NCBI GenBank assembly: GCA_027621505.1
Contig: JAQCBK010000005.1
Location: 1 to 57,509, forward strand
Reading direction: 5' to 3'
Length of the DNA: 57,509 bases
Source: Bacteroidota bacterium
Lineage (GTDB): Bacteria > Bacteroidota > Bacteroidia > Flavobacteriales > Flavobacteriaceae
Position numbers and translations under genes: made by a program. A model generated the notes under the pieces. That model searched no databases. It was not told where the DNA came from and saw only the letters and a program-made list of their open reading frames with translations. Shown here piece by piece: positions 2,926 through 9,464 of this stretch. Position 1 is the stretch's first letter. Every line of letters starts with the position of its first letter.

Positions 2926-3153
2926 ATGAAAAAAATTTTCGAGGCCGTTGCAAGTTTATTTGAAGAAATATTTTTTCTTCCATTTCAACTGCTCACCCAA
3001 CTCGAACCTTTTAGCTGGTGGTTGTCCAATGGAATGAGTTTTATCTTTTTGTCAATTGGATTTGTTGCTGCCACTTATTGGATCAGACAATTGCGAAAAT
3101 TCGATAAAAGTGGTGAGGAAAATAAAGATCCCTCTGCCCATTCCTTTTTATAG
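2926..3153 (+). CDS. Small single-pass membrane protein (DUF6341-like)
   Basis: 75 aa from the ATG at 2926 (MKKIFEAVASLFEE); a TTG start six codons earlier would put translation 2 nt after the -7 box. It has an amphipathic N-terminus, one transmembrane helix (about residues 35-57, WLSNGMSFIFLSIGFVAATYW) and a short charged tail ending AHSFL. It resembles the short flavobacterial family I recall as DUF6341, often found next to purD; no function is known. The last 6 nt overlap the 3' end of the convergent purD gene. The family name is from memory and less certain than the gene itself. Confidence 0.7.
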   Translation: MKKIFEAVASLFEEIFFLPFQLLTQLEPFSWWLSNGMSFIFLSIGFVAATYWIRQLRKFDKSGEENKDPSAHSFL

Positions 3154-4428
3154 GTCGAACCCGATATCTTTTCGGTAATACATGCCTTCGAAGTGAATTT
3201 CCTCTAAGGTTTTATAAGACTTTGCTGTGGCTTTTTGATGATTTTCTCCCATTGAAGTAACCGCCAGGACCCTGCCCCCGTTCGTTAAGATATCTGCATC
3301 AGCATTAATGGTTCCTGCATGGAAAATGGTTTTGTCGGGGTGGGAGTCGAGTCCATCTATTTTTTTCCTTTTTTCATAGGTCTCTGGGTACCCGCCCGAT
3401 ACCGCTACAACTGTCGTAGCAGTCTGATCTTCAATCAAAAGTTCAACCTCATCCAGCTTGCCGTTAGCTGTAGCAAAAAGCATCGCTACAAAATCATTTT
3501 TGATTCGGGGCAACACAACTTGTGTTTCGGGGTCTCCCATTCTTACATTGTATTCTATTACATAAGGCTGATCTCCAACACGTATCAATCCAATAAACAC
3601 AAACCCCAAATAGGGAATATTGTCTTTTTTAAGTCCCTCAATGGTCGGTTTTACAATGGTTTCTTGAATTTCATTATAAAACTTCTCATCCGCAAAAGGA
3701 ACTGGAGAAATGGCACCCATTCCCCCGGTATTGAGTCCTGTATCTCCCTCGCCAATGCGTTTATAGTCTTTGGCCATTGGTAGGGTGAGGTAAGCTTCCC
3801 CATCGGTCAAAACAAAACACGAAAGTTCAATTCCACTCAGAAATTCCTCAATGACTACCCTGGAAGACGCCTTGCCGAATTTTCGATCGATCAGCATCTT
3901 ATAAAGCTCTTTTTTTGCTTTATCTAACTCATTGATAATGAGCACTCCTTTGCCTGCAGCTAAACCATCTGCTTTAAGTACGTAGGGAGCGGTCATCTGC
4001 TCTAAAAATTCATAGCCTTCTTGTAAGGTTTCAGAGGTAAAACTTCCATATTTTGCCGTGGGTATGTTGTGGCGACTCATAAAGGCCTTGGCAAATTCCT
4101 TACTGCCTTCTAAAGTCGCCCCTAGCTTTTGAGGTCCAATGACCGGTATGTCTTTAAGTTGCTCATCTTGAAGAAAGAAATCATGAATGCCATTAACCAA
4201 AGGGTCCTCTGGGCCCACAACAACCAAGTGTATGTTGTGAAGGATCACTGCATTTTTAAGGGCTTCAAAGTCATTGACGCCAATGTTGAGATTGGTGGCT
4301 AGGGCAGCCGTTCCAGCATTGCCTGGGGCGACAAAGATTTGATTGGTCATTTTACTTTGAGCCATTTTCCAACAAAAGGTATGTTCTCTACCTCCACTTC
4401 CCAATACCAGAATATTCCGTTTTTTCAT
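3148..4428 (-). CDS. purD: Phosphoribosylamine-glycine ligase
   Basis: 426 aa. PurD joins glycine to 5-phosphoribosylamine using ATP, the second step of de novo purine synthesis, in the cytoplasm. Visible marks are the N-terminal domain (LGSGGREH), the ATP-grasp core (KADGLAAGKGV, later GFVFIGLI and EYNVRMGDPETQ) and a normal length. The ATG at 4428 is chosen because the earlier in-frame start at 4437 overlaps a TATATTTG promoter element. That element leaves only 6 nt before the ATG. The gene ends the leftward M23-GH3-methyltransferase-GT2 run but appears to have its own promoter. Confidence 0.95.
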   Translation of the reverse strand: MKKRNILVLGSGGREHTFCWKMAQSKMTNQIFVAPGNAGTAALATNLNIGVNDFEALKNAVILHNIHLVVVGPEDPLVNGIHDFFLQDEQLKDIPVIGPQKLGATLEGSKEFAKAFMSRHNIPTAKYGSFTSETLQEGYEFLEQMTAPYVLKADGLAAGKGVLIINELDKAKKELYKMLIDRKFGKASSRVVIEEFLSGIELSCFVLTDGEAYLTLPMAKDYKRIGEGDTGLNTGGMGAISPVPFADEKFYNEIQETIVKPTIEGLKKDNIPYLGFVFIGLIRVGDQPYVIEYNVRMGDPETQVVLPRIKNDFVAMLFATANGKLDEVELLIEDQTATTVVAVSGGYPETYEKRKKIDGLDSHPDKTIFHAGTINADADILTNGGRVLAVTSMGENHQKATAKSYKTLEEIHFEGMYYRKDIGFDL

Positions 4429-4434
4429 TTGCCA

Positions 4435-4442
4435 CAAATATA
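4435..4442 (-). promoter_or_regulatory. TAnnTTTG -7 element of purD
   Basis: TATATTTG on the minus strand, 6 nt before the purD ATG. Transcription would start within a few bases of the start codon, so the mRNA would be leaderless or nearly so. Confidence 0.6.
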
Positions 4443-4454
4443 GTTAAGTAGACA

Positions 4455-5309
4455 TTATTTTGGATGAAACCTTTGCCAAATCCCCTTCCATCTGTTTTTT
4501 CTTAAAAATTCCCCTTGTGCTGCATCAATCAAAAATGTGGATTTGTCTTTTTTGGCTTTACTGTAGCCTTTGAGATAATGGAAAAAAGTGAGCGGCTGCT
4601 TTGTTTTCCATGCCCTTTTCAAGCCCATGATGGCCGTAAGTGTGATGCCCATTCTCATCCGGTAGGTGGCCACTCCTTGTAACATTCCTGCTCCTGCACT
4701 GTATTTAAAGCCAGTGGGTTTTAGGTGTTTTACCTTTAGGGAGGGGTCGACCAATATATCCCATTTGAAATATCGTGCCATCCACTCATCCAAAGTGTCC
4801 CAGCCTATGGATTCGGCAATTTTGCCAATTTCTAGAAAACAAGCCTTGCGGTAGGCTTTGAGCGATCCCCTGATGTGATCGTCTTTGCTTAGGCTTTCCA
4901 AGACCCATTGGCCGTTTTTTTGAATGAAGCACTGGCCCGCAGCCATCCCTAATCTAGGGTTGTTTTCGAAGTGTTGTGACAATCGCTTAAGGTAATCCTC
5001 TTCAAAAACCATATCGGCATCAAACTTACATATGATATCATAGGCTTGGTCCAAAACCTTATATCCCTCATAGAATGCAGCCACCACCTTGGCGCCGGGA
5101 AGGTGTTCTTCGCTGGATTTTTTGTGTACCAACTGTATCCAGGAGTGATGTTTTACAAAATCATTAACGATATTGGTGGTTTGATCGGTAGAATTGTCAT
5201 TGACCACAATCAATTGGGTCGGTTTTAACTGCTGGTTCACCAAAGACTTCAAGGTTTTCCCAAGGTTTTCCTCTTCGTTATGGGCCGGTATGACAATGTA
5301 AATTTTCAA
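4455..5309 (-). CDS. Glycosyltransferase family 2
   Basis: 284 aa. The N-terminal GT-A fold starts IYIVIPAHNEEENLGKTL and includes VNDNSTDQT and the metal-binding D-x-D (KFDADM, about residues 97-102), as in inverting family 2 enzymes. No clear transmembrane helix is present, unlike many GT2 synthases. It overlaps the upstream methyltransferase gene by 4 nt (ATGA type), so the two are probably translationally coupled. The acceptor is unknown; context suggests an envelope or glycolipid substrate. Confidence 0.88.
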   Translation of the reverse strand: MKIYIVIPAHNEEENLGKTLKSLVNQQLKPTQLIVVNDNSTDQTTNIVNDFVKHHSWIQLVHKKSSEEHLPGAKVVAAFYEGYKVLDQAYDIICKFDADMVFEEDYLKRLSQHFENNPRLGMAAGQCFIQKNGQWVLESLSKDDHIRGSLKAYRKACFLEIGKIAESIGWDTLDEWMARYFKWDILVDPSLKVKHLKPTGFKYSAGAGMLQGVATYRMRMGITLTAIMGLKRAWKTKQPLTFFHYLKGYSKAKKDKSTFLIDAAQGEFLRKNRWKGIWQRFHPK

Positions 5310-5839
5310 GATTTATGCGTTAATTTTTCAGCATAAACGATATAGTGTCTGGGTGTAAAATACCTCAATAAGGATCGAACGCCAAAAGATTGAGGGGGAT
5401 TGATCCACTTCTCACTTGCTACAATTTTCCAACCTGTTTTCTCCAAAAGCCAATCAAACTGCCAGTCTTCAAATTCGTGAAAGTGGCGGTCTCTCACGTC
5501 TGTTAAGCTTCTATAAGGCTTTGAGAACCATAGGTTTAATGGAACACTGACCACTAATTTTTTGGCCTTTATACTTTTTAGAACTTGATAGGGCGAAAGA
5601 AGGTGTTCCAAAATTTCAAATGCGGTAACTACCTCTGCTTTGGAGTTGATCAATGCCGTTTGGTCCTCGTCCAAGTCTTCTCCATGGGTATTCTCCACTT
5701 TATGGCCTTGGGCCAGCATTAACTCAGTCATTGGATTTTGAACCCCCAAGTCCAAGATGTGAGAACCCTGCTCAATGTGTTGGGTCAGAAATGCCAGGGT
5801 CTTTTGAAATCGCTTTTGATGGGCTTGATTGGCGTACAT
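5306..5839 (-). CDS. Small class I SAM-dependent methyltransferase
   Basis: 177 aa. Motif I appears as ILDLGVQNP (residues about 24-32), followed by an acidic motif (EDLDED) and the EILEHL block typical of the Methyltransf_11/23 group. It lies 3 nt after the GH3 gene and overlaps the GT2 gene by 4 nt, so it belongs to the same operon. The substrate is unknown. It is shorter than most members (usually 200-280 aa), so it may be a minimal catalytic domain. Confidence 0.78.
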   Translation of the reverse strand: MYANQAHQKRFQKTLAFLTQHIEQGSHILDLGVQNPMTELMLAQGHKVENTHGEDLDEDQTALINSKAEVVTAFEILEHLLSPYQVLKSIKAKKLVVSVPLNLWFSKPYRSLTDVRDRHFHEFEDWQFDWLLEKTGWKIVASEKWINPPQSFGVRSLLRYFTPRHYIVYAEKLTHKS

Positions 5840-5842
5840 GGA

Positions 5843-7327
5843 TTACTTTAAGGGAAGTTGATCAGCAATTTTTCTGTCATTGGACAAACGGGGTACTTTG
5901 TTTTGACCTCCGAGTTTTCCAATGCTTTTCATGTATTGTTGAAAGCCTCCGTCAGCAACAGTACTGATAACGAGCGTTCTCAGAACGCTACCCTTTAGAA
6001 GGTCTTCGTAATATACATTTTGTTTCTGCATGGATTGATCGAGTTTTCGAGCAAAATCCTGCATGTTTTGGGGTGGTTTTTTAAATTCTATAAACCATTC
6101 ATGGAAGGGAAGCCCTTCTTTTGGATCAATTTGTGGCGCCACTGTAAATTCTTTTACCTGAACCTGACTGTCTTTACAGGCCAGTTGCATCGCCGTTTCA
6201 ACCTCTTTCCCTATCACGTGTTCTCCAAAGGCAGAAATAAAATGTTTGACCCTTCCTGTAACGACCAAGCGGTAAGGGTTCAATGACACAAAACACACGG
6301 TGTCTCCTATGTTGTAGGCCCACAAGCCCGCTGAAGTGGAAAGGATTAAAACATAGTTGACCCCCAATTCAACCGCTCCCAAGGTATGCCTTTTGGGGTT
6401 TTCTTCCCCAAACTCATCCGCTTTGATGAATTCGTAGAAAATTTCATTGTTGAGCAAGAGCAATAGCCCTTTGTCTTTTTGTCGGTCTTGATAGGCAAAA
6501 AAGCCTTCGGAGGCGGGAAAAAGCTCCACGCTATCCACCTTCTTGCCAATCAGTTTTTCAAACATGGGTCGGTAAGGCTCGTAATTAACCCCTCCATATA
6601 CAAACAATGAAAAGTTGGGGAAAATCTTACCAATGGGTTGATGGGTATGTTCGATGAGCTTTTCAAAATACATTTGAACCCAAGAGGGAATCCCTGCAAT
6701 CAGGGTCATGTCTTCGGCTAGGGTTTCTTTTACAATCGCATCCACCTTGGTTTCCCAATCTTCTATACAATTGGTGTCCCATGAGGGCATTCTGCTTTTC
6801 TGAAAATATTTAGGCACATAGTGGGCCACGATTCCCGAAAGTCTGCCGATGACATTTCCCTGTTTTTTATTGAGCACTGGGCTTCCTTGAAGGAAAATCT
6901 GTTTACCGCTTACAAAATCGGTATTGCCGGTTTCGTGTATGTAATTCAAGAGGGCATCCCTTGCGGCGACAATGTGGGTGGGCATGGATTCTTTGGTCAG
7001 TGGGATGAATTTGGCGCCGGAGGTAGTGCCGCTGGTTTTGGCATAGTATAGGGGTTTTCCCGGCCAAAGGACAGAAGGGTTCCCAGCCAACATTTTCTCT
7101 ACATAAGGCCTGATTCCTTCATAATCTCGAACGGGAACCGAAGCCTGGAACTCCTCATAATTGCGGATTTTATCAAATCCGTGGTCACGGCCAAACTCGG
7201 TTGTTTTGGCTTTTCGAATGAGGTAATCAAAGGTTTTTTGTTGCGCAGTATGTGGATCTTTGATCCATTTTTGATTCTTGTTGTGAATGTAGTTGGCGAA
7301 AATTTTTGCGCCTATTTTTTTGATCAT
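5843..7327 (-). CDS. GH3 auxin-responsive-promoter family protein (acyl-adenylating enzyme)
   Basis: 494 aa. GH3 proteins belong to the firefly-luciferase adenylating superfamily; plant members activate a carboxylic acid with ATP and join it to an amino acid. The nucleotide-binding signature is plain (YYAKTSGTTSGAKFIPLT, about residues 93-110), followed by YGGVNYEPYRPMF and the later GLWAYNIGDTV block. The bacterial role is not established. The gene overlaps the M23 peptidase gene by 4 nt upstream and lies 3 nt before the methyltransferase. That points to a multistep conjugate or envelope-lipid pathway, which is inference. Confidence 0.9.
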   Translation of the reverse strand: MIKKIGAKIFANYIHNKNQKWIKDPHTAQQKTFDYLIRKAKTTEFGRDHGFDKIRNYEEFQASVPVRDYEGIRPYVEKMLAGNPSVLWPGKPLYYAKTSGTTSGAKFIPLTKESMPTHIVAARDALLNYIHETGNTDFVSGKQIFLQGSPVLNKKQGNVIGRLSGIVAHYVPKYFQKSRMPSWDTNCIEDWETKVDAIVKETLAEDMTLIAGIPSWVQMYFEKLIEHTHQPIGKIFPNFSLFVYGGVNYEPYRPMFEKLIGKKVDSVELFPASEGFFAYQDRQKDKGLLLLLNNEIFYEFIKADEFGEENPKRHTLGAVELGVNYVLILSTSAGLWAYNIGDTVCFVSLNPYRLVVTGRVKHFISAFGEHVIGKEVETAMQLACKDSQVQVKEFTVAPQIDPKEGLPFHEWFIEFKKPPQNMQDFARKLDQSMQKQNVYYEDLLKGSVLRTLVISTVADGGFQQYMKSIGKLGGQNKVPRLSNDRKIADQLPLK

Positions 7328-8199
7328 AAAGCCTCTGAAAAATCGATAAAATAAGATGGATCAACCGAGTAGCCGTTCATCCACAATTCAAAGTGTAAGT
7401 GCCAACCCGTTGACAACTCTCCAGTGTTGCCGGCCATTGCAATTACTTCTCCAGCTTTTACCAGATCGCCCTGAGCTTTTTCTAGAGAAGCGTTGTGTTT
7501 ATAAACGGACAACAAACCAAAATCGTGTTTGAGAATGATCACATAGCCCGTCTCAACAGTCCACTCGGAAAAAACAACAATGCCATGGGCCACGGCCATG
7601 ACCGGTGCATTTTCTTTTAAGGCAACATCCACTGCAAAATGTTTTTTGTCAGGATCATAGGGTTGTGAAATGGGACCCCTCGCGGGTGGATACAAAAGGT
7701 AATTTATGTTTTCCAAACCATTGTAAATCACATTGTATTTGTCTTCTTGCCCAACTTCCAGGCGTAAAATGGAGTCGGCTTCGGGAGTAGCATTTTGGTA
7801 GATTAATTGCTGTGGCGATGTTCCAGGAGGTTCTGTAATGGTGCCATCTTCGCCAATAATTTCTCCCGTAAGGGCACTTTTAATGGATTGAATAAATTGA
7901 TCTCTTTTTTGAAATTCTCTACTGAGAGAATCTAATAAAAAGCTGTTTCTAAGGGCCTCTATCCTGAGTTTAGAGCTGGTATATCCAGGGATGAATTCCT
8001 TGATTGGGGTATAGGCTACAAGGAAAAAGGAGCCAATGACAATAAAGGTAATGAACAAACTGACCAGTAAAAGAATATTGAACTGAGTAACCCTGACAAA
8101 AAATCGTTCCTCAAGGGTGGTTTCATTGATGACCACCATACGGTATCGGTTCAATAAGTTTTGAATCCAAAGTCGCCTCTTTTTTTCTTCTTTTCCCAT
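7324..8199 (-). CDS. M23 family (LytM-type) metallopeptidase, membrane-anchored
   Basis: 291 aa from the ATG at 8199. The alternative start at 8208 lies inside the -7 element, so the inner Met is preferred. A short basic cytoplasmic tail is followed by one transmembrane segment (about residues 36-60, LLVSLFITFIVIGSFFLVAY), a periplasmic linker and a C-terminal LytM domain (GPISQPYDPDKKHFAVDVAL to HLHFELW). The family cleaves peptidoglycan cross-links or acts as a regulator. The HxH motif and the upstream Asp are present; the usual first His is replaced in the visible block (QPYDPDKKHFAVD). It is the first gene of the operon with GH3. Confidence 0.88.
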   Translation of the reverse strand: MGKEEKKRRLWIQNLLNRYRMVVINETTLEERFFVRVTQFNILLLVSLFITFIVIGSFFLVAYTPIKEFIPGYTSSKLRIEALRNSFLLDSLSREFQKRDQFIQSIKSALTGEIIGEDGTITEPPGTSPQQLIYQNATPEADSILRLEVGQEDKYNVIYNGLENINYLLYPPARGPISQPYDPDKKHFAVDVALKENAPVMAVAHGIVVFSEWTVETGYVIILKHDFGLLSVYKHNASLEKAQGDLVKAGEVIAMAGNTGELSTGWHLHFELWMNGYSVDPSYFIDFSEAL

Positions 8200-8205
8200 C
8201 CACCA

Positions 8206-8213
8206 CAAATATA
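8206..8213 (-). promoter_or_regulatory. TAnnTTTG -7 element of the M23-GH3 operon
   Basis: TATATTTG on the minus strand, 6 nt before the ATG at 8199, with the same spacing as at purD. Confidence 0.6.
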
Positions 8214-8302: not shown

Positions 8303-8497
8303 ATGTATTCATTAATCTATTCTTTAGGTATGATCGGGGCACCGCAAATTATTCTTATCGTTGTAGTCGTTCTTTTGCTTTTTGGAGGAAGAAAAATTCC
8401 CGAATTGATGAGAGGTTTGGGAAGTGGTATTAAAGAATTCAAGAATGCCACAAAGGAAGACGAAGAAAGTTCTGACAAAAAGCCGTTAGAAAAATAA
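8303..8497 (+). CDS. tatA: Twin-arginine translocase subunit TatA/E
   Basis: 64 aa. TatA forms the protein-conducting part of the Tat system, which exports folded proteins across the inner membrane. The sequence shows a short N-terminus, a transmembrane helix ([16 protein letters not shown]), the hinge and amphipathic helix ([20 protein letters not shown]) and an acidic-basic tail, as in the family. It is transcribed divergently from the M23 operon and converges on the DUF4837 gene with a 1-nt gap. No tatC lies in the window. Confidence 0.93.
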
Positions 8498-8498
8498 T

Positions 8499-9464
8499 CT
8501 ATTCGAAGACGATTCCATCGATAATGGTGTTGAGTTCAAACATCTGATCTCTTTTGCTAGATGAGGGAGCAAATGCGAATCCCTCAACGACCATCCACCT
8601 TTTATTTAGCGTATCCTTTATCATGTAATTTACAAAGGGGCCTGCCATAAAGTCATTGGCAACTTCCCATGTTCCCTTGGTAATATAGGTCAATTTCCCC
8701 TTTGATGAGCTTTTGTAGAAATAGGGCCGGTAGGCCCTTTCGGTAATCATATAGGATCCTTTGAGTCGCCCAGGTATGTAGCGTTTACCAATTGAGTCTC
8801 GGATTTCAAGGATTCTCTTTTTTACATTCCCCTTTAAGCCTTGAAGCGGGAGGCTATAGGCAATCAAGTTCATGTGTCCTTTGGGGGTGTCCTTTTGTAT
8901 CCAAACAAAATTCGTGGTGTCTTTTACCGTTTTGTAGGCTGTTGGGTAGCGTAATGATATCTTAAAGCGATCTTTCAAATCTCGGTCTTTGGCGGGCGAT
9001 TTTTTGATCCTTCTTAATTTTTCTTTTTTCTCTTTATCGGTGAGTGTGGCTCTAAGCAGCTTGATGTTTTCTTCGAGTAAATAGGCTTTTACATCATCAT
9101 CTTCCCCAGAAATTCGAGCCACCAATTGGGGTTTGGCCATAAAATCCTCACTCAACTGGAACCTGCCCAAGGAGTCCTTTAAAAACCAAACGATGTTTCT
9201 GCTGTTTCTGGCAAAGCCAGTAAAAACTTCTGGAGGAAGGTATTTTAGGGTAAACTGTGGTTCATCGAAGGGAAGTCCTTCATAGGGGGTCTCCAATAAA
9301 TCTCTGGTCGTTTTTCCCAAACGGCCTTCCCAGCTTTTTTTGGGCATCACCACGGTGACATGATTGATGTTGGCATTGGAATCGGGAAGATACCTGAGAG
9401 GTGTTTTTGACTCTTTACAAGCGTTTAAGCAAAGAATCAAAACAAATATTACTGCTTTTTTCAT
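8499..9464 (-). CDS. DUF4837 family lipoprotein
   Basis: 321 aa. A lipoprotein signal peptide (MKKAVIFVLILCLNAC, lipobox cysteine at 16) means it is exported and lipidated. The rest matches the Bacteroidota family DUF4837 as I recall it: VVMPKKSWEG near the start and paired domains with WVIQK- and FMAGPFVNY-like blocks. Function is unknown. It is 10 nt downstream of pgk on the same strand and is probably co-transcribed with it. Confidence 0.82.
   Translation of the reverse strand: MKKAVIFVLILCLNACKESKTPLRYLPDSNANINHVTVVMPKKSWEGRLGKTTRDLLETPYEGLPFDEPQFTLKYLPPEVFTGFARNSRNIVWFLKDSLGRFQLSEDFMAKPQLVARISGEDDDVKAYLLEENIKLLRATLTDKEKKEKLRRIKKSPAKDRDLKDRFKISLRYPTAYKTVKDTTNFVWIQKDTPKGHMNLIAYSLPLQGLKGNVKKRILEIRDSIGKRYIPGRLKGSYMITERAYRPYFYKSSSKGKLTYITKGTWEVANDFMAGPFVNYMIKDTLNKRWMVVEGFAFAPSSSKRDQMFELNTIIDGIVFE

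Follow-up and report, generated by a model that had tools for sequence, protein, structure and literature searches.

A GH3-family amido synthetase gene of Flavobacteriaceae with an old M23-type partner and genus-specific methyltransferase and glycosyltransferase neighbors

Results

The GH3 gene and the run of genes around it

In this work, we analyzed a gene for a GH3-type acyl-acid amido synthetase and the genes packed around it on a stretch of 57,509 nucleotides (the window) from the Flavobacteriaceae assembly GCA_027621505.1 (Bacteroidota bacterium, a marine flavobacterium; contig JAQCBK010000005.1, positions 1 to 57,509). The genome comprises 1.85 Mb on 100 contigs and is 86% complete. Reading of the open reading frames (ORFs) revealed a tightly packed run on the minus strand that starts with the gene for an M23 (LytM-type) protein (7324-8208; Pfam PF01551, 92 bits), continues with the GH3 gene (5843-7327; 494 aa), a gene for a small class-I-like methyltransferase (MT; 5306-5839; 177 aa) and a gene for a family 2 glycosyltransferase (GT2; 4455-5309; 284 aa) and leads onward into purD (3148-4437, minus strand; TIGR00877, 476.6 bits at a cut-off of 288). 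The M23 and GH3 genes overlap by 4 nt, GH3 and MT are separated by 3 nt and MT and GT2 again overlap by 4 nt, which agrees with the tight packing with 3-4 nt junctions described in the original prediction, a reading of this DNA from its letters alone. That prediction had placed the set at 4455-8199. All four genes are indeed present, but the run is longer, since purD follows GT2 at a distance of 17 nt. The M23 gene has a TTG start codon and extends to 8208; an in-frame ATG is found at 8199, the end of the predicted set. Genes were called as greedy ORF calls, and the synteny counts given below use all ORFs together with purpose-built hidden Markov models.

The GH3 protein of the window matched the N, M and C domains of the family with 136.4, 53.6 and 76.0 bits, respectively (PF03321, PF23571 and PF23572; cut-off 23.6 each). 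Its nucleotide-binding motifs read TSGTTSGAK, FPASEG and GLWAYNIGD and are conserved among the rows of the clade that we name GH3-B here. The serine of motif I corresponds to S115 of the bacterial GH3 enzyme OlsH; it is invariant in two alignments of 17 and 25 rows and is present in all motif forms listed (170 of 173 rows). In the Protein Data Bank, the sequence matched JAR1 (E 5e-17), and plant GH3 amido synthetases were the top structure matches of an AlphaFold2 model (Foldseek E 1.2e-22; mean predicted local distance difference test score, pLDDT, 80.2). Alignment of the model to plant GH3s with VIA-align gave Z values of up to 32.6 over 462 residues at a root mean square deviation of 11.2, the latter suggesting a shifted C-terminal domain. 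The substrate pocket is not readable because residues 166-189 were modeled at a pLDDT below 50. Judged by motifs and fold, the window protein is an intact acyl-acid amido synthetase of the GH3 family, and the acyl-adenylating enzyme that had been predicted at this position was thus borne out.

A second GH3 protein, 36% identical to that of the window, is encoded on another contig (C83) of the same genome. In a FastTree tree of 206 GH3 rows, GH3-B, a clade GH3-A and a third small clade were separate, with modest support (0.71) for the GH3-B branch. GH3-B was found in 22/22 genomes of the genus and GH3-A was seen in 20 of the 22. The third, divergent clade occurs in six relatives (L087-L090, L092 and L093), where no M23 gene adjoins it. 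A DUF2797-type neighbor accompanies GH3-A in nine of twelve loci (including L245) and is named by Pfam in one of them. A link between DUF2797 and GH3 in flavobacteria appears in the part of the literature source considered here (PMC9425974); because of these nine loci, it fits the GH3-A clade.

Relationship to OlsH and to plant GH3 proteins

According to the sections of the OlsH report used here, OlsH (Sinac_1599), a GH3 enzyme from Singulisphaera acidiphila for which S115 is essential, consumes ATP and acylates ornithine with a free fatty acid to give N-acyl ornithine. The same report counts more than 7500 bacterial GH3 matches and assigns almost 90% of them to the Bacteroidota, where their function is unknown (PMC12493201). 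OlsH and the window protein share the family, a similar length and the same three nucleotide-binding motifs, and the NCBIfam model for OlsH (NF052613) matched the window protein over its full length with 394 bits. Identity as OlsH proper is ruled out by the cut-off of 620 bits. The second GH3 of the genome scored 390.7, and among 148 genomes of the phylum none reached the cut-off and 50 gave a sub-threshold match. The window operon also differs from what is described for OlsH in that it holds neither an OlsI-type hydrolase nor OlsG; its genes are those for M23, MT, GT2 and purD (the MT itself was not compared with OlsG). By sequence, the window GH3 is a distant relative of OlsH.

The plant proteins JAR1/GH3.11, GH3.5, GH3.6 and GH3.12 share the fold of the window protein over its whole length (Z 31 to 33), and JAR1 is also its sequence match, whereas identity is only about 15-20% and the plant substrates are hormones or benzoate. 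We know of no hormone- or benzoate-related role of this kind in bacteria. The statement in the original prediction that GH3 enzymes are best known from plants requires amendment now that a bacterial member, OlsH, has been characterized (PMC12493201). Neither the M23-GH3 pair nor the function of any GH3 protein from Bacteroidota was the subject of a paper retrieved in full-text searches of the open-licence literature.

If GH3-B works as OlsH does with ornithine, it would use ATP to adenylate a carboxylic acid and would then transfer the acyl group to an amine or to the amino group of an amino acid, so that an N-acyl amino acid or a lyso-amino-lipid is formed. The acid is most likely a fatty acid. 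Alternatively, GH3-B could use an aromatic or other non-lipid carboxylic acid or could be a plain adenylating ligase, like plant GH3s or PaaK-type ligases. The hormone- and benzoate-specific plant enzymes and PaaK-type ligases are indeed its structural neighbors, and the poorly modeled stretch leaves the pocket unreadable. We nevertheless regard this alternative as unlikely, because the only characterized bacterial GH3 enzyme found in the open-licence literature, OlsH, uses fatty acids as far as its description considered here goes (PMC12493201) and because the neighborhood is envelope-related, although the latter does not fix the substrate.

PF13444, which we take to be the domain of OlsB/OlsF/GlsB-type acyltransferases, was detected in 22/60 relatives, namely in one of 22 genomes of the genus (the window genome itself), in 12/15 other members of the family and in 9/23 others of the order. 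No PF13444 match was obtained in 35 of the 54 relatives with GH3-B, and in 21/22 within the genus, several of these genomes being incomplete. GH3-B is therefore independent of a PF13444 acyltransferase, and we infer that in many genomes it would be free to act as a putative N-acyl amino acid maker. In the window organism, it cannot be the sole route to N-acyl amino acids, as contig C99 carries a 602-aa OlsF-like ORF with PF13444. Contamination was suspected as an explanation for C99. Its single etfA gene is 89-94% identical to that of genus members, which speaks for a true contig of the genus, although the tetranucleotide correlation with the window is slightly low (0.892, compared with 0.91-0.95 for pieces of the window).

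Conservation of the gene order

M23 genes on the strand of GH3 were counted as adjacent if their end lay no more than 400 nt inside GH3 or 600 nt before it. By this measure, an M23 gene immediately precedes GH3-B in 22/23 genus loci (that of the window and 22 from 21 further genomes, two of them from a single genome), in 13/13 loci of other genera of the family and in 17/19 loci from other families of the order. The same arrangement was present in 11/40 loci of a class sample and in 78/80 named loci. For the class sample, 40 of 75 strong GH3-B places from 119 genomes were used, most of them high on the list and one from the window's own family. The named set comprises the best 80 of 585 loci, nearly all from Flavobacteriaceae. 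The exception within the genus is L091, in which GH3 is broken into pieces. This distribution characterizes M23-GH3 as an old two-gene core.

The distribution of the MT gene is of a different kind. It directly follows GH3 in 23/23 loci of the genus, which is not a matter of chance, while this position was occupied by MT in 0/13 loci of the family, 0/19 of the order and 0/40 of the class sample outside the genus, and in one of the 80 named loci (L154, on a contig equal in length to that of genus member G012). Hence, of the four-gene order that the original prediction had proposed to search for across Bacteroidota, only the M23-GH3 half is old, and the position of MT and GT2 behind GH3 is limited to the genus. 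Family-wide searches detected MT in 12/15 and GT2 in 11/15 other genomes of the family. Both genes were present, and adjacent, in ten of them, and in nine of these ten loci the pair resides behind gcvP-KASIII, and mlaE-mlaF come later on this strand in five of the ten stretches fetched. In locus L109, KASIII and GT2 are about 550 nt apart with no MT detected between them; an MT gene has perhaps been lost there. Within the genus, all five loci examined (L244 and L257 to L260) have gcvP-KASIII followed directly by mlaE-mlaF, and MT-GT2 is absent. The pairs from the ten family loci are 53-66% (MT) and 42-54% (GT2) identical to that of the window, and in the trees the genus MT proteins fall on one side of a single branch (support 96/90), as do the genus GT2 proteins (100/99). 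By tree and identity, the pair behind gcvP-KASIII is thus orthologous to the window pair, its site being away from GH3. Since the pair sits behind gcvP-KASIII in other genera and this site is emptied in the genus, a single relocation of MT-GT2 in the genus ancestor, which appears well documented by these comparisons, explains the position data.

What lies behind GH3 elsewhere is variable. Many Flavobacteriaceae have a DUF6909 gene and then rml genes at this place, other families and orders have dxr-rseP, and in two loci purD follows GH3 directly. In L165 and L191, the space from GH3 to purD is filled, by Pfam matches, with genes for a GT4 glycosyltransferase and a polysaccharide pyruvyl transferase, and two ORFs of similar size, recognized by size only, take this position in L212. 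In L170 and L178, rml genes occur together with a GT2 that is 40-41% identical to that of the window.

The domain assignments of the pair itself differ in quality. The window GT2 matched PF00535 with 68.6 bits, and a DAD motif was read by eye in an alignment of 13 genus members. The Pfam match of MT is weak (PF13489, 28.2 bits at a cut-off of 27), its homologue in L104 remained below the cut-off with 22.9 bits and MT gave no NCBIfam match. Motif I of class I S-adenosylmethionine-dependent methyltransferases usually is a glycine-rich GxGxG; in MT, it has the divergent form LDLGVxNP, which is kept across 14 aligned genus rows. Homologues of MT adjoin genes for a UDP-GlcNAc 2-epimerase and a YfhO-type membrane protein or for a sugar nucleotidyltransferase, and homologues of GT2 adjoin a polysaccharide flippase gene. 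Our best guess is that MT and GT2 serve in the decoration of a surface glycan.

In the original prediction, the four genes were suggested to build together a modified, amide-linked glycolipid or wall component. In a single pathway of this kind, GT2 would glycosylate and MT would methylate the N-acyl product of GH3, and M23 would aid its export or its insertion into the wall. The tight junctions, the order kept throughout the 23 genus loci and the location of MT-GT2 behind KASIII, likewise an acyl-handling enzyme, in other genera of the family are in line with this proposal. However, it is not matched by the distribution of the genes: MT-GT2 is found behind GH3-B in the genus only, where it moved to this site from the gcvP-KASIII locus, the pair lies away from GH3 in ten genomes of the family, and GH3 is followed by other glycan genes or by the unrelated dxr-rseP in relatives. 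Furthermore, the Pfam and NCBIfam matches of GT2 contain no evident link to an acyl carrier or lipid. The genus-only position rules out a dedicated four-gene pathway as the best reading, and we rate its probability as low, slightly lower even than that of a non-lipid substrate for GH3-B.

The M23-type protein

The M23 protein of the window consists of a short N-terminal tail, one hydrophobic stretch (read by eye), a linker and the M23 domain, in which the zinc ligand columns read H-D-H-H. It resembles LytM/M23 envelope peptidases such as MepM in this domain and its ligands, and differs from them in falling under every NCBIfam equivalog cut-off and in having one short N-terminal part that is retained by relatives without a peptidase domain. 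Of 141 M23-type proteins encoded beside GH3-B, 109 keep H-D-H-H, 20 are without the domain and 12 have ligand changes (L044 and L066, both from one genus, L071, L155, L156, L160, L169, L171, L175, L193, L206 and L210), those of the L155-L160 type being based on one alignment. The domain-less proteins (e.g. L157, L158, L164, L168, L172 and L173) have 165 to 190 aa; records named Flavobacterium account for 17 of them, flavobacterial metagenome-assembled genomes (MAGs) for two and another genome of the same family for one. A juxtamembrane sequence of the TPLREYIPGY type is present in 20/20 and an NE[DE][TS]FEE motif in 19/20 of them. For the N-terminal 110 codons of 19 of these genes, the median ratio of nonsynonymous to synonymous substitution rates (dN/dS) was 0.104 (26/171 pairs with dS <1.5; approximate method). 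Among the full-length proteins, identity to the window is higher in the M23 domain (61%) than in the N-terminal half (40%), so the peptidase domain matters where it is present. In L158, L159, L161, L163 and L169, an ORF of 116-141 aa with the appearance of a membrane protein and a PPKKINxLYGYRT motif, presumably SdpI-like, is located between M23 and GH3.

Because purifying selection acts on the N-terminal half of the domain-less neighbors and the GH3 next to them is intact, the conserved partner of GH3 may be a membrane anchor rather than a peptidase. In 32 of 33 loci without an adjacent M23 gene, a profile of the N-terminal part found nothing upstream of GH3, and many members of the class thus do without such an anchor. 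The proposal that the M23 peptidase frees peptides or amino acids from the wall for acylation by GH3-B is improbable: the pair is old and the window M23 has its zinc ligands, yet 20 of the 141 neighbors lack the domain and 12 have altered ligands beside an intact GH3-B, and an M23 domain on the outer side of the membrane would act in another compartment than a cytosolic GH3.

Flanking genes and nearest relative

Divergently from M23, a gene for a small TatA-type protein (8303-8497, plus strand; PF02416, 67.9 bits) follows and then, on the minus strand, one for a DUF4837 protein (8499-9464; PF16125, 282.9 bits). According to the synteny listings, the DUF4837 gene lies upstream of M23-GH3 in the genus, as it does in many loci from Flavobacteriaceae, and a TatA-type gene is labeled near M23-GH3 in many loci of this family. 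The relatives of the window also place it in the Flavobacteriaceae. Among the best 80 of the 585 named loci, the nearest is that of a MAG designated "uncultured Flavobacteriaceae bacterium", whose GH3 is 73% identical to that of the window and which, going by its isolate name FRAM_WSC20, originates from Fram Strait samples.

Discussion

Taken together, we favor, as the somewhat more probable account, an old M23-GH3 core that makes N-acyl products and a later-arrived MT-GT2 pair that decorates a glycan, the two probably belonging to separate pathways. Through its N-terminal part, the M23-type protein would most likely place the GH3 chemistry at the inner membrane or tie it to envelope growth. 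In the ancestor of the genus, MT and GT2, probably serving in surface-glycan decoration, would have left the gcvP-KASIII site and landed between GH3 and purD, in the purD-bordered slot that is occupied by other glycan genes in relatives. There, they would probably share a transcript with GH3 and not a pathway.

Several observations weigh against this account. GH3-B was not found in 6/60 relatives, and M23 does not adjoin it in 29/40 loci of the class sample and in 2/19 of the order, so the pairing is not obligatory. The GH3 of the window remains far below the OlsH cut-off, as do all 148 genomes of the phylum, and in the part of their report considered here the OlsH authors hold ornithine to be an unlikely substrate for GH3s from Bacteroidota, in which homologues of OlsB/OlsF fill that job (PMC12493201). 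The survival of the MT-GT2 pair beside GH3 throughout the genus could also reflect a functional tie, and a KASIII or GH3 neighbor at both sites fits equally well with an acyl-linked role of MT-GT2.

For the separate, old core, a further step is conceivable. In Bacteroidota, GH3-B could form, together with the N-terminal part of its M23-type partner, a two-component synthase of N-acyl amino acids that is placed at the membrane. The peptidase domain would then be an add-on, since much of Flavobacterium has lost it whereas purifying selection still acts on the putative anchoring half beside an intact GH3. We put this forward tentatively and consider it possible rather than probable. The anchor idea is new and unproven; from the loss of the peptidase domain it would follow that the N-terminal part may bind or place GH3.

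Overall, the window appears to hold an ordinary Bacteroidota GH3 with an old partner and a genus-level relocation of two neighbors, and a four-gene pathway is unlikely. The analysis offers handles on the function of Bacteroidota GH3 proteins, namely an old partner gene and a way to set genus-only neighbors aside. In genomes that have GH3-B but gave no PF13444 match, a lipid lost together with GH3 should be easily seen. If the two-component synthase were true, it would be the route left for N-acyl amino lipids in streamlined genomes without an OlsB/OlsF/GlsB-type acyltransferase.

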